DNA of 39,219 nt from Akkermansiaceae bacterium. GTDB taxonomy: Bacteria; Verrucomicrobiota; Verrucomicrobiia; Verrucomicrobiales; Akkermansiaceae. The DNA lies in contig CANLKN010000027.1 of NCBI GenBank assembly GCA_947491475.1, positions 1 through 39,219 on the forward strand, given 5' to 3'. The notes under the pieces are model-generated. The model was not told the DNA's origin. It was given only the letters and a program-made list of their open reading frames with translations, and searched no databases. The stretch's first letter is position 1. Each line of letters begins with the position of its first letter. The translations under genes were made by a program, and so were the position numbers. Positions 11,291 through 15,269 of this stretch are shown here, piece by piece.

Positions 11291-12382
11291 ATGAAAGAGA
11301 TCGCCATTTCCACTGCCGACATCGCGCCGCTGCTGCCGGAAACCCCGAGCCCGATTCTGATCATCGGCACCGGCGGCATCGTCAAGGACGCCCACCTTCC
11401 GGCCTACCGCATCGCCGGGTTTCCAGTTTGGGGTATCTACAACCGCACCCGTTCCCGTGCCGAGGCGCTCGCCACGGAGTATGGCATCGCAAACGTCTTT
11501 GATGATCTGGATGCCGCGATCGCCGCCGCGCCGGAAAACATCATCTACGATCTGGCGCTGCCGGCCTCGATGTTTGCCGACGCCCTGCGCCGCCTACCGC
11601 AGGGATCGCATGTGCTGATCCAGAAACCGATGGGTGAGGATCTCGCCCAAGCCCGCGAGATTCTCGCCGTCTGCCGGGAGCGCGGTCTGCATGCAGCCAT
11701 CAACTGCCAGCTGCGCTTCGCACCATTCGTCGCCGCCGCGCGCCGCATCATCGGCGAGGGCCACATCGGCGATCTGATCGACATGGAGATGCGCCTCAAC
11801 GTGCACACTCCGTGGGGTTTGTTTCCCTTCCTCAACGGCATCCCTCGCGTGGAAATCGTCTATCACAGCGTGCATTACATGGACCTCATCCGATCTTTCC
11901 TCGGAGATCCGCGCAGCGTCCATGCACGCACCGTGCCGCATCCTCTGCATCCGCAGCTCGCCTCGGTCAGCAGCTCGATCATTCTGGATTATCCCAATCC
12001 GGTCCGCGCCACCATCACCACCAACCACCTGCACCGCTTCGGCGCGAAACATCAGGAAAGTTATCTCAAGTGGGAAGGCACGAAGGGGGCGATCAAAGCC
12101 CGCGTGGGCCTGCTCATGAACTACCCGCACGGAGTGGGGGACGAGTTTGAATACTGTCTTCTCGATGATGATGGGAAACCCGGCGAATGGCAGTCGAGCG
12201 CCATCGAAGGCTCATGGTTTCCCGAAGCCTTCATCGGCTCGATGGCCCAGGTCCAATGTCACAAGGCCGGCTTGCTCGCCCACATGCTCACCGATGTGGG
12301 CGACGTCATTCACACCATGGAAACCGTGGAAGCCGCTTATGAGTCCGACCGCCGCGGCGGCGTGAAACCGGGGGAGGTTTGA
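11291..12382 (+). CDS. Gfo/Idh/MocA-family oxidoreductase (operon A)
   Basis: The 363-residue protein has an N-terminal NAD(P)-binding fold with IIGTGGI at 24-30 and the family lysine in QKPMGED (Lys112; the usual EKP is QKP here). The C-terminal sheet domain includes a possible catalytic His in YHSVHYMD. These enzymes oxidise or reduce sugars, inositols and sugar acids, so it may be the entry dehydrogenase of the operon's sugar pathway. It is the first gene of operon A, facing the IclR regulator. Its stop codon TGA is the first three bases of an inverted-repeat element (12380). Confidence 0.88.
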   Translation: MKEIAISTADIAPLLPETPSPILIIGTGGIVKDAHLPAYRIAGFPVWGIYNRTRSRAEALATEYGIANVFDDLDAAIAAAPENIIYDLALPASMFADALRRLPQGSHVLIQKPMGEDLAQAREILAVCRERGLHAAINCQLRFAPFVAAARRIIGEGHIGDLIDMEMRLNVHTPWGLFPFLNGIPRVEIVYHSVHYMDLIRSFLGDPRSVHARTVPHPLHPQLASVSSSIILDYPNPVRATITTNHLHRFGAKHQESYLKWEGTKGAIKARVGLLMNYPHGVGDEFEYCLLDDDGKPGEWQSSAIEGSWFPEAFIGSMAQVQCHKAGLLAHMLTDVGDVIHTMETVEAAYESDRRGGVKPGEV

Positions 12383-12410
12383 ACATCCAACACTGAACAT
12401 TGAACGTTCA
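12380..12410 (+). repeat. Left inverted arm of miniature element
   Basis: This arm is built of GAACAT-type heptads (TGAACATCC, CACTGAACATTGAAC). Its first three bases are the stop codon of the upstream oxidoreductase. Confidence 0.65.
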
Positions 12411-12456
12411 GGTAAACTGATTACATATGAAAACAAGCACCACCCACCACTGTTTG

Positions 12457-12495
12457 TTCAGCATTCAATGTTCGATGTTGGATGTTCAATGTTCA
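12457..12495 (-). repeat. Right inverted arm of miniature element
   Basis: This arm reads TTCAGCATTC then four ATGTTC/ATGTTGG-type units and is the reverse complement of the left arm over most of its outer 30 bases. Apparent in-frame ATG codons within it are not thought to be gene starts. Confidence 0.65.
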
Positions 12496-12503
12496 TTATT
12501 CCC

Positions 12504-13643
12504 ATGACCTCTCTCACCGGCATCGCTTGGAACCACACCCGCGGCTTCGTTTCCGTGGCCGCCTGCGCCCAGCGCTTCGAGGAACTTCACCCGGAGGCGC
12601 GCATCACTTGGGAAAAGCGCTCGCTGCAAGCCTTCGCCGACGCATCACTCGCAGATCTGGCCGCAGCGTATGACCTCATCATCATGGACCATCCGCACAC
12701 CGCTCTGGCGGCGACGGAAGGCCTTCTGCTTCCTTACGAGGATTGGCTGCCCGCGGAATTTCTCGCAGACCAGGCGGAGAACTCGGTCGGCGGCTCGCAT
12801 GAGAGTTATCGCTTCAACGGCAGGCAATGGACGCTCGCCACGGATGCCGCCTCGCCCATCGCCACCTGGCGGCCGGACCTGATGGATAAACATCAACTCG
12901 CGCTTCCGCAAACATGGGAGGAAGTTCTTGAACTCGCGCGCCGGGGCTTCGTGACCGTGTCCGCGTTCCCCATTGATGTGCTGATGCACAGTTATACCTT
13001 TTGCGAAGCGCTCGTCCATGCGCCGTTCAGCGGCGATTGCGTCGCACCGGATGAAATCCTCGCCGCCGCTCTCGCGGAGCTGCGCAAGCTCGTTTCCCAC
13101 TGCGATCCCGCCTGTCTGGAGCGCAACCCGATCCGCACCGCCGAGTGGATGTCCCAAACCAGCGATCCGCGCGCCGCCTATTGCCCGTTCGCTTATGGTT
13201 ATTCCAACTACTCCCGCCCGCGCTACGCGCCGTTTCCGCTCAAGGCCGGCGGCTTGGTGACCTTCAACGGCAGCCGCCTGCGTTCCACGCTGGGTGGCGC
13301 CGGAATCGCGGTTTCATCGAAAACCAAGCATCCGCAGGCCTGCATGGACTTCGCGCGTTTCACTGCCTCGCCCGAGACCCAGATGGGCGTCTATTTCCAA
13401 TCCGGCGGCCAGCCCGGCCACCGCGCCGCATGGACCGACGACGCGGTGAACGCCGCCTCAGCCGACTTCTTCCGCGATACCCTGCAAACGCTCGATGAAT
13501 CGCTGCAGCGCCCGAAGCTTCCCGGCTACATGGACTTCCAGGACGCAGCCACGCCGGTGGCGCACGCGGCGGTGCGGGGAGAGGTGGCTGTGGAAGAGGC
13601 GGCGAGTAAGTTGAATGAACTGGCGCGTGTGATCAAATGTTGA
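12504..13643 (+). CDS. Solute-binding-protein-like, without signal peptide
   Basis: The 379-residue protein resembles group-1 bacterial extracellular solute-binding proteins for sugars: a mixed lobe near the N-terminus (YDLIIMDHPHTALAA), a hinge region with YGYSNYSRPRYAPFPL, and the characteristic GGAGIAVSSKTKHPQACMDF segment near residue 265. There is no signal peptide or lipobox: it begins MTSLTGIAWNHTRGF. No permease or ATPase gene is nearby. The start is set at 12504, since an upstream ATG at 12468 falls inside the inverted repeat. It may be a cytoplasmic sugar or sugar-acid-binding protein recruited to a new role. Its stop codon lies at the first base of the next element. Confidence 0.75.
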   Translation: MTSLTGIAWNHTRGFVSVAACAQRFEELHPEARITWEKRSLQAFADASLADLAAAYDLIIMDHPHTALAATEGLLLPYEDWLPAEFLADQAENSVGGSHESYRFNGRQWTLATDAASPIATWRPDLMDKHQLALPQTWEEVLELARRGFVTVSAFPIDVLMHSYTFCEALVHAPFSGDCVAPDEILAAALAELRKLVSHCDPACLERNPIRTAEWMSQTSDPRAAYCPFAYGYSNYSRPRYAPFPLKAGGLVTFNGSRLRSTLGGAGIAVSSKTKHPQACMDFARFTASPETQMGVYFQSGGQPGHRAAWTDDAVNAASADFFRDTLQTLDESLQRPKLPGYMDFQDAATPVAHAAVRGEVAVEEAASKLNELARVIKC

Positions 13644-13680
13644 ACATTGAACATCCAACATTGAACACCCAACTTTGAAC
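13641..13680 (+). repeat. Left inverted arm of four-helix-bundle element
   Basis: The arm contains TGAACATTGAACATCCAAC followed by two more degenerate heptads. Its first bases TGA serve as the stop of the solute-binding-like gene. Confidence 0.7.
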
Positions 13681-13685
13681 TGAAT

Positions 13686-14069
13686 ATGTCCGATACGAAA
13701 TATGATCTTGAGGAACGTTTGTTGGATTTTTCCGTGCGCATCATACGCATCTCCGAATCGTTGCCCGCCAGTCGGGCCGGCAATCACGTGGCGGGGCAAT
13801 TGCTACGCTCAGGAACCGCTCCGCTTTCCATGCATGGTGAAGCACAGGCCGCCGAATCGCCACGCGACTTTCAGCACAAGCTGCGCTTATCCTTGAAGGA
13901 GTTGCGCGAAACGCTCCGATGGCTCCGCCTCGTTCAGCGTGTGCCTCTGGTCGAGCCATCATCGAAGCTCGATTCGATTCTCGCCGAATGCGATGAATTA
14001 ATCCGCATCTTCGTCACCAGCATCCGCACCTCCGAGTCCCGCAGCAAGAAACGTCCTCCATCTTCCTAG
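13686..14069 (+). CDS. Four-helix-bundle protein (S23/intervening-sequence, Avd-like family)
   Basis: The 127-residue protein has the pattern of the S23 rRNA-intervening-sequence / four-helix-bundle family: LEERLLDFSVRIIRI at the start, ASRAGNHVAGQLLRSGTA in helix 2, HGEAQAAESPRDFQHKL leading into helix 3, and LRETLRWLRLVQR. Members include proteins encoded in 23S rRNA intervening sequences and the Avd protein of diversity-generating retroelements; the family forms pentamers that may bind nucleic acid. There is no reverse transcriptase here and the gene fills most of the space between two inverted repeats. The start at 13686 is 6 bases past the left arm. Its role is unknown. Confidence 0.85.
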   Translation: MSDTKYDLEERLLDFSVRIIRISESLPASRAGNHVAGQLLRSGTAPLSMHGEAQAAESPRDFQHKLRLSLKELRETLRWLRLVQRVPLVEPSSKLDSILAECDELIRIFVTSIRTSESRSKKRPPSS

Positions 14070-14072
14070 TTT

Positions 14073-14110
14073 TTCAGCATTCGATGTTCAATGTCGGATG
14101 TTCAATGTTC
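14073..14110 (-). repeat. Right inverted arm of four-helix-bundle element
   Basis: The arm reads TTCAGCATTC then ATGTTCAATG and related units, the inverse of the left arm. It differs from the right arm at 12457-12495 at about three positions. Confidence 0.7.
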
Positions 14111-14123
14111 CACCTCTTTCCGA

Positions 14124-15269
14124 ATGAAGCCCTTATCCAATCTCACCGTCCTCGACTTCTCCCAATTCCTCGCCGGTCCTTCTGCGGCCATGCGTTTGGC
14201 GGATCTCGGGGCGCGCGTCATCAAGATCGAACGCCCCGGTGTCGGTGACATCTGCCGCCAGCTATACATCACCAATCTCAAGCTCGATGGCGACAGCACC
14301 TTGTTCCATTCCATCAACCGCAACAAGGAAAGCTTCGCTGCGGACTTGAAGAATCCGGAGCATCTATCACAAGTCAAAAAGCTCATCGCCCATGCGGACG
14401 TGCTGATTCAGAATTTCCGGCCCGGGGTGATGGAACGCATCGGGCTGGGATATGATGAGGTGGCGAAGCTCAATCCCAAGCTCGTCTATGGCATGGTCAC
14501 CGGCTACGGCACGACCGGTCCGTGGGTGGATCTACCGGGACAGGATCTGCTCGCGCAAAGCCGCAGCGGACTCGTCTGGCTGAGCGGCGATGCGGGAAAC
14601 ACACCCACACCGATGGGCCTCGCCGTCTGCGACCTGACGGCCAGCGCGCATCTCGTGCAGGGAATCCTCGCCTGCCTGGTGCGCCGCGGCGTCACCGGAC
14701 AAGGCGGCAAGGTGGAGGTTTCGTTGCTCGAATCGATCCTCGACCTTCAATTCGAACTCACGAGCACCTTTCTCAACGACGGCGGCAAGCTGCCGGAACG
14801 GAGCGCGGTGAACAACGGCCATGCCTACCTCGGCGCACCATACGGGATTTACGCCACCGCCGATGGTTTCCTGGCGCTGGCCATGGGCTCGGTGGTGCAA
14901 CTTGGCGGTTTGTTGGAACTTCCGGCACTCGGTGAGTTCACCGATCCGGAGTCATGGTTTTCACAACGCGATGAAATCAAGGCGCTGATCCGCGATCATC
15001 TCAAGACCCGCAGCACGCAGCATTGGCTCGACCGCCTGGTGCCCGCGGACTATTGGTGCTCCGAGGTGCTCAACTGGCGGCAGCTTTTCGATCATGCCGC
15101 CTTCGCCGAGCTTGATTGGGTGATGGAGGTTCAGCGAGAGGATGGCCCGGCGATGAAAACCACGCGCTGCCCGATCACGATTGACGGCCAGCGTTTCAAG
15201 TCCGCTATCGGCGCACCGCGTGTCGGCCAGCATACCGATCGCATCGCCAAGGAATTCGGGCTTGTTTGA
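14124..15269 (+). CDS. CaiB/BaiF-family CoA-transferase
   Basis: The 381-residue protein carries the type III CoA-transferase pattern: [20 protein letters not shown] at the start, [31 protein letters not shown], then [14 protein letters not shown]. Asp141 in PGQDLLAQ is at the place of the Asp that forms the acyl anhydride with CoA acids. It moves CoA between carboxylic acids, so a sugar-acid derivative may be activated to a thioester for the MaoC proteins. The frame extends upstream to an ATG at 14091 inside the repeat, but homology begins at MKPLSNLTV. It directly follows the inserted four-helix-bundle element. Confidence 0.9.

Follow-up and report, generated by a model that had tools for sequence, protein, structure and literature searches.

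A putative mobile unit in an Akkermansiaceae genome: an S23 four-helix-bundle gene between inverted heptad arrays

Introduction

A short unit in the genome of an Akkermansiaceae bacterium carries a gene for an S23/Avd-type four-helix-bundle protein between two inverted repeats. It lies in the window, by which we mean the whole 39,219-nt stretch of DNA analysed, part of contig C27 of a 3.9-Mb draft genome (GCA_947491475.1). An earlier sequence-only reading had seen in it the layout of a minimal mobile or spreading element. The locus raises the question of whether such a unit moves, and by what means, when its gene belongs to no transposase family.

S23 or "four helix bundle" proteins are present in many bacteria, and their function is so far unknown. 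Excerpts from the literature describe S23p as a homopentamer of unknown function (PMC4990558) and name the S23 family in a figure legend about CRISPR-associated genes (PMC10910872).

We think it fairly likely that the window unit is a mobile element similar to the systems formed by repetitive extragenic palindromes and REP-associated tyrosine transposases (REP/RAYT), with heptad arrays as ends and the S23 protein as its sole protein. The layout is also more general than the sequence-only reading stated, as supported by the survey below.

Results

The two arms of the window unit (Table 1) pair over 41 nt (13639-13679 with 14073-14113) at 83%. They had been described as inverted copies with one difference over 26 bases, and by eye we find that single difference between the core at 13643-13668 and its inverted copy. 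The claim that the arms are built of heptads also stands, and Tandem Repeats Finder places a 7-nt array (TTGAACA) at 13640-13667; the motif given earlier, GAACAT, was one base short of the unit, which is GAACATT. Allowing up to three mismatches, TTGAACATTGAAC has 21 matches in the window; 100 shuffles gave 7.5 on average and 17 at most. These terminal inverted repeats surround the S23 open reading frame (ORF), and the unit lies between two protein genes, not in a 16S or 23S rRNA gene. No Rfam family matches the window at the gathering threshold, and no reverse transcriptase (RT) or transposase family was found among 15 of the larger window ORFs, in agreement with the earlier statement that rRNA, RT and transposase are missing here.

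The encoded protein matches PF05635 (E 3e-11, 43.9 bits against a curated cut-off of 33.8) and TIGR02436, "four helix bundle protein" (E 5e-21, 74.9 bits, cut-off 24). PF05635 is its only Pfam match above cut-off, and no transposase or Y1/HUH family was matched. An AlphaFold2 model (predicted local distance difference test 91.5) has four long helices. Its best match in the PDB is the S23-family structure 2rld (template modelling score, TM, 0.78/0.90), and the next full-length matches are 2gsc and Avd 4dwl (TM 0.72/0.82), so the earlier assignment to an S23/Avd-like bundle is borne out. The 2rld and 2gsc entries have five chains each. By analogy, the window protein is probably a pentamer that reads the arms. 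The ratio of nonsynonymous to synonymous substitution (dN/dS) was computable for nine of 12 pairs, the other three being saturated. It was 0.023-0.102 in eight pairs and 0.328 in L067/L069, where dS is merely 0.03; pairs without shared neighbours gave 0.07 (L064/L066) and 0.04 (L107/L131). Judged by these ratios, the S23 protein is under purifying selection. PADLOC returned no defence family for three proteins, and identity as a known anti-phage defence system was dropped for lack of a PADLOC match.

All four PF05635 genes found in the window's own genome lie between inverted heptad arms. The four heptads differ: GAACATT (window), AGACGCA, CCAGANN, and GTTANNN types. For a broader view we assembled 121 S23 loci, drawn from 56 genomes within the genus and the order, after dropping two contig-edge fragments (L082, L085) and a duplicate of the window unit (L056). 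Six loci with short flanks were left out (L153, L067, L069, L070, L071, and L083), leaving 115. The set is biased to high-scoring genes; the 61 genomes of the genus hold 273 PF05635 matches. We scored arms as the best ungapped match between the upstream flank and the reverse complement of the downstream flank. The median score was 23 with a locus's own flanks and 9 in 3000 mixed pairings of flanks from different loci (99th percentile 25); the mixed maximum of 36 arises because some loci share a heptad type. A score of at least 14 was reached by 105/115 loci, 7.6% of mixed pairings, and 3 of 185 control windows taken from loci of another gene family (PF01381). At a threshold of 18 the values were 89/115, 3.4%, and 0/185. 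Because own-flank scores exceed both mixed pairings and controls, the inverted arms are not due to chance.

The arms are periodic. Self-identity is 0.62 at lag 7 and 0.59 at lag 14, versus 0.26-0.33 at the other lags from 2 to 15. The median periodic stretch is 31 nt, and 102 of 177 arms hold four to five heptad units. Position 1 of the heptad is A in 64% and G in 28%, position 2 is G in 75%, and the remaining five vary; the phase was chosen to favour this position bias, and the window clade is better read as GA-N5. Across the arms of 105 loci, differing positions are A/G in 142 cases and G/A in 68, the left arm being richer in A and the right (inverted) in G. Some loci depart from the usual array. 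The arms of L123 and L140 have an 8-nt unit (TCGGTGTT), and at L171, L164, and L147 the arrays are much expanded on one or both sides, suggesting heptad growth by slippage. In the window's own genome (C117), about 30 GAACATC-like units occur near a contig end (L050:7-216), with a short array facing the opposite way at 360-394.

Similar arms are found well outside the order. An alignment of six of these proteins served to scan named bacterial and archaeal genomes, and we took the best 80 of at least 586 relatives, of which 78 were usable (L293 and L312 have short flanks). Scores of at least 13 were reached by 68/78 loci versus 7.7% of mixed pairings, and of at least 14 by 64/78 versus 4.9%. The figure of 68/78 is an upper bound for clean cases because several loci (such as L251, L264, and L277) have no 7-nt period; some others have very long arrays. 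Among the matches listed are Pseudoalteromonas, Pseudomonas, Pseudoxanthomonas, Competibacteraceae, Flavobacteriales, Cyclobacteriaceae, Planctomycetota, Deltaproteobacteria, and Victivallis. Going by the record titles of these matches, S23 genes with such arms occur in Verrucomicrobiota, Proteobacteria, Bacteroidetes, Planctomycetota, and Deltaproteobacteria.

On the protein tree, heptad types form blocks. Effects of site and protein were separated by sorting loci according to whether they share both neighbours. Similar proteins (at least 0.65) without shared neighbours have a median arm similarity of 7.5 with an upper quartile of 13 (87 pairs), versus 5.5 for dissimilar proteins (4361 pairs; p 2e-18, pairs not independent). 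At the same site, proteins below 0.45 have a median of 5.0 (3 pairs) and those of 0.45-0.65 one of 5.5 (39 pairs), which equals background; for proteins of at least 0.65 it is 17.5. Individual sites give the same picture. Where a PAPS-reductase-domain gene meets an EF-Tu-like GTPase gene, presumably cysD-cysN, there are GTCTAAA-type units (L102, L103, L109) and an AGTCGGG-type unit (L144), with the gene families read for L102 and L144. At the site of L107, L112, and others, both arms change together between species (AGTTTTC versus AGTGATC). Comparison of loci shows that each protein clade has a heptad of its own, which is found on both arms and does not depend on the site.

The window junction itself is empty in three related genomes. 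A search with the CoA-transferase gave matches in nine of the 61 genomes, including the window's own. In G060, G005, and G033 the solute-binding-protein gene directly adjoins the CoA-transferase gene, with overlapping stop and start (ATGA). These empty junctions support the minimal mobile or spreading layout that the sequence-only reading proposed. The right flank of the window unit (..TCCGAATGAAG) agrees with the former overlap, which suggests that insertion took place a few bases ahead of the former stop. The TGA of the probable former gene end (14113..14127) overlaps the CoA-transferase ATG (14124-14126), as in the empty junctions. Four relatives (G060, G005, G033, and G074) are also empty at the junction that holds a gene-less hairpin of the same heptad type in the window. 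The remaining genomes differ in arrangement. In G061 (L343) the CoA-transferase gene is immediately preceded by an S23 unit (80% identity over 114 aa), with a further gene-less hairpin after the unit. This unit was rejected as a filled copy of the window junction because its upstream neighbour is another gene, making it a related unit at a different junction. Another gene follows and overlaps the solute-binding-protein gene in G062 and G072, G074 has a spacer without heptads, and G036 is cut by a contig end. In G062 and G072 (L345, L346) a GTTTAAT array precedes the CoA-transferase gene, with no S23 gene adjoining.

The metK-ahcY junction offers a larger sample. The gene ahcY was found in 56/61 genomes, and 30 metK-ahcY junctions were read: 11 are filled (459-572 nt), one holds a gene-less hairpin (114 nt), and 18 are empty (30-88 nt). 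In the filled junctions printed, the unit starts about 0-15 nt past the metK stop, and the right arm is followed by a spacer and the ahcY start. Units are of AGACGCA type in most filled genomes read and of AGTTTCA type in G007, G030, and G002; the gene-less hairpin, in G060, is of AGTTTTC type. The site was probably entered more than once, because different heptad types are present there. At an oligopeptide ABC-transporter gene pair (the families of L059), G007 and G009 have a full unit, and the window's own genome (C74) has, by eye, arms without a gene. Comparison of species shows insertion between operon genes.

Position and boundaries also point to discrete units. At 64/105 loci the left arm starts no more than 12 nt from a stop codon on the same strand (ORFs of 80 codons or longer), versus 6.4% of random positions; the mirror case at the right arm occurs at 20/105. 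We counted 209 blocks of similarity restricted to the units; in three pairs, all lacking shared neighbours, the block covers the unit almost exactly: L064/L066 (80%, 471 nt), L066/L068 (72%, 468 nt), and L138/L152, from one genome (74%, 513 nt). In these, similarity stops 0-16 nt from the outer arm edges. Of the other blocks, several meet an arm edge on one side only, and most are shorter. Nine loci in G022 (L316-L320) and G032 (L324-L327), 87-97% alike pairwise, have an internally truncated S23 gene and GATTTAT-type arms within a repeat that exceeds the arms. These copies were not counted as proof of amplification or unit mobility because they lie in a larger shared repeat.

Arms also occur without a gene. 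The window-type arm, with at most one mismatch, has 19 matches in its own genome and none for the reversed-pattern control. Neither of the outcomes that would speak against an element, arms present once only or arms scattered without link to bundle genes and without presence/absence differences, was seen. A degenerate GAACATT pattern is present in 37/61 genomes and its reversed control in none. In the set of 37 genomes that were also searched with the window protein, each of the six with a TTGAACA-type gene has at least ten arm matches, versus 2/31 others (p 1.2e-5). For the AGTTTTC type, at least three matches were found in 6/6 cognate genomes versus 4/55 others (p 4e-6, gene status incomplete). 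Many arms of G060 stand in mosaics with other repeats. At L363, L365, L366, and L371-L374, for example, single AGTTTTC arms, AGTGAGA-like arms, and a GC-rich palindrome-like stretch follow one another in direct order. The mosaics resemble the clusters of REPs known as bacterial interspersed mosaic elements (BIMEs).

A search for an enzyme gave no clear partner. The window's own genome has four RT matches, on C143, C16, C89, and C82, and none on the window's contig. RT was not found in 23/61 genomes (12/38 of the most complete), including the one-contig genome G071 with eight PF05635 matches, and from this RT supply was judged unfavourably. Y1 transposases are matched in 60/61 genomes; G063 has none and two PF05635 matches. 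The own genome has 17 Y1 matches, with position known for the best only, so a Y1 gene in the window outside the unit is possible. The flanks of 20 Y1 genes (L376-L395) mostly carry other inverted repeats, such as GTAGCC.. palindromes. A long lag-7 stretch occurs in 1/20 Y1 flanks versus 60/121 S23 flanks; at lags 5, 6, 8, and 9 the S23 flanks give 2-12/121. The contrast suggests that RAYT-type enzymes come with repeats of their own, apparently as a separate REP/RAYT system, an argument that does not reach action in trans. RAYT supply in trans was not favoured in view of the other repeats at the 20 Y1 flanks.

Discussion

In the mechanism that we propose, a unit would insert between the genes of an operon, typically with its left arm at or next to the upstream stop and in the upstream gene's orientation, and would keep the downstream gene's start intact. 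Each protein clade would use its own heptad on both arms, independently of site. The S23 protein, a homopentamer in solved relatives, would read the mostly four to five heptads of each arm, perhaps with one 7-nt unit per subunit and both ends held together. Cutting and copying would be left to host replication or repair enzymes or to a further enzyme. Hairpins without a gene and single arms, both of the unit's own heptad type, may accumulate in this way; we observe such remnants mostly in genomes holding the cognate gene. Overall, this would be a REP/RAYT system in which a non-catalytic protein replaces the transposase. We put forward more tentatively, and with somewhat more doubt than conviction, that such units form an element class without transposase, recombinase, or RT. 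A pentameric S23 ring would read about five heptads per end as a protein-specific code and target operon stop codons, with host enzymes doing the chemistry; the intervening sequences (IVS) of rRNA genes would be members that landed there, and Avd a relative recruited by RTs.

Several observations weigh against a mobile REP/RAYT-like element. The evidence for movement is presence and absence between species, and no transposition was seen. By eye, neither the metK-ahcY nor the window junction gave a recognisable target-site duplication, in species that are too far diverged for this to weigh heavily. Boundaries are clean at both ends in three pairs only, and the arms of L138 are weak (score 12). 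Ten of the 115 loci score below 14. The 281 locus pairs with proteins of at least 0.65 that share both neighbours indicate that many units are old positional orthologues, so that across much of the genus movement is either slow or a thing of the past. We know of no nuclease or polymerase activity for the S23 fold, and the idea of one heptad per subunit is drawn from arm length alone (the four to five units of 102/177 arms). The tie of arms to genes has exceptions as well. Among the 37 genomes searched, G001 and G002 have arms with no cognate gene found. G061 has a cognate gene but only two arm matches; counting it as cognate, the link over all 61 genomes is weaker (6/7 versus 9/54, p 5e-4), with cognate status incomplete for G059-G082 and for unread PF05635 genes, so that the 37-genome test is cleaner. 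For the AGTTTTC type, discounting the unit's own two arms leaves 5/6 cognate genomes, and the reversed control has four matches in two genomes. In G060, with 37 arm matches, 25 arms were read, of which three have an inverted partner and 22 do not; because so many are unpartnered, single arms seem to spread or persist too.

The arms could instead act in RNA, pairing in the operon mRNA to form a hairpin whose cutting (by RNase III, for instance) uncouples the neighbouring genes, with S23 binding and regulating its own leader and any mobility incidental. In the known IVS, as excerpts of PMC4990558 describe them, complementary ends enclose an S23 ORF, and RNase III does the cutting. The gene-less hairpin folds as RNA with a z score of -4.35 (0/200 shuffles as good) and the full unit, its arms paired, with -3.43 (0/100). 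Left and right arms co-vary within loci: a locus's own right arm fits better than those of its clade-mates (mean rank 0.746, n=45, p 9e-6), in five of six clades, AGTTTTC showing no preference (0.52). Selection on a sense-RNA stem should, however, tolerate G-U pairs, and G-U-compatible differences between arms are fewer, not in excess (118 versus 193, p 2.5e-5, to which left-arm base composition may contribute; by locus, 21 versus 60). A sense-RNA stem as the sole reason for the arms is not favoured by this test. Because differences that keep G-U pairing are fewer, we prefer recognition of both ends at the DNA level, with effects in RNA possible. An RNA module alone would also leave insertion, boundaries, and single arms unexplained, and we consider it unlikely.

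We think it quite improbable that the arms belong to some other mobile system, a RAYT/Y1 transposase or an RT, with the S23 gene as cargo or parasite. Y1 genes are nearly everywhere in these genomes, Avd is an accessory of the RTs of diversity-generating retroelements (DGRs), and its structure has the fold modelled for the window protein. Against this, the Y1 genes sampled have other inverted repeats with no 7-nt period, G063 has S23 genes without a Y1 match, G071 is among the genomes in which RT was not found, and S23 clades carry their own heptads. A reading that dispenses with an element altogether, in which host-domesticated S23 genes stand beside ordinary heptad microsatellites growing by slippage, draws on the roughly 30 units reached at L050:7-216 and on the many positional orthologues. 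Slippage cannot yield inverted copies of one heptad on both sides, heptads matched to proteins, empty sites, or boundaries at arm edges, and this reading seems to us very improbable.

The mobile element that we favour resembles several known systems in part. RAYT genes themselves lie between inverted REPs, and the units described here likewise have a gene between inverted repeat copies and gene-less doublets elsewhere. In excerpts of PMC3116915 and PMC2817692, REPs and REP doublets forming hairpins (REPINs) are extragenic, occur as inverted hairpin doublets and as singlets, and fall into repeat groups tied to specific proteins, as do the S23 units. Unlike REP/RAYT, the units have an S23 four-helix bundle instead of an HUH transposase and tandem heptads, and the Y1 genes sampled from these genomes have other flanks. 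Insertion sequences give rise to miniature inverted-repeat transposable elements (MITEs), gene-less inverted-repeat derivatives at new sites; unlike with MITEs, no parent transposase was found for the S23 units, and their ends are periodic arrays. Unlike a classical insertion sequence, the unit's gene belongs to no transposase family. The fold is shared with Avd of DGRs, but the unit has no RT, RT was not found in more than a third of the genomes, and template and variable repeats were not searched.

The rRNA IVS is similar in having an S23 ORF between stem-forming inverted ends, over 428 nt in Coxiella and about 475 nt here (PMC4990558, in part). The same excerpts treat IVS mobility as proposed, not shown, and cite proposals that IVS are remnants of transposition or that the ORF serves mobility (1993). 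Window-type units differ in lying between protein genes and not in rRNA; their ends are heptad arrays with a clade-specific unit, and empty sites are known for them. The TAACTGA heptamers of Beggiatoaceae are also 7-nt tandem units, in 2-6 copies, mostly intergenic and proposed to be regulatory; unlike S23 arms, they are direct repeats of one fixed unit, with one inverted case in 170 sets, and the available text contains none of the terms "four helix", "23S rRNA", and "intervening" (PMC4679880, in part). The literature searched, with most subscription journals and bioRxiv preprints outside it, yielded no account of S23 genes framed by heptad arms; because the search left out most subscription papers, novelty is provisional.

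Free-standing units bring empty sites, defined ends, a heptad code tied to the protein, and gene-less derivatives. The S23 family would gain a concrete and testable job, the binding of its own heptads. If the proposal is true, it adds a class of mobile elements that spread without a recognised enzyme, and it may account for part of the unexplained 7-nt intergenic repeats in bacterial genomes.

Neighbouring features

The gene-less hairpin of the window sits between an oxidoreductase gene and the solute-binding-protein gene, one junction upstream of the S23 unit. Coordinates of both, and of the adjoining genes, are given in Table 1.

Table 1. The S23 unit, the gene-less hairpin, and adjoining genes in the window.
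Feature	Position	Strand	Basis or remark
Left arm, about five to six heptads (GAACATT; TTGAACA in another phase)	13640..13681	+	Inverted partner is the right arm
TGA stop codon of the upstream solute-binding-protein ORF, provided by the left arm	13641..13643	+	ORF 12468-13643 and sequence
S23/Avd-type four-helix-bundle protein gene, 127 aa	13686..14069	+	ORF, profile matches, structure model
Right arm, heptads inverted	14071..14112	-	Pairing with left arm
Probable former 3' end of the solute-binding-protein gene (..TCC GAA TGA), displaced by insertion	14113..14127	+	Inferred from empty junctions of G060, G005, and G033 and from sequence
Left arm of gene-less hairpin, same heptad type, at the preceding junction	12379..12413	+	Repeat reading, RNA fold
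Right arm of gene-less hairpin	12455..12503	-	Repeat reading, RNA fold
Upstream neighbour, extracellular solute-binding protein (PF01547)	12504..13643	+	Profile search
Downstream neighbour, CoA-transferase family III (PF02515)	14124..15269	+	Profile search from second codon

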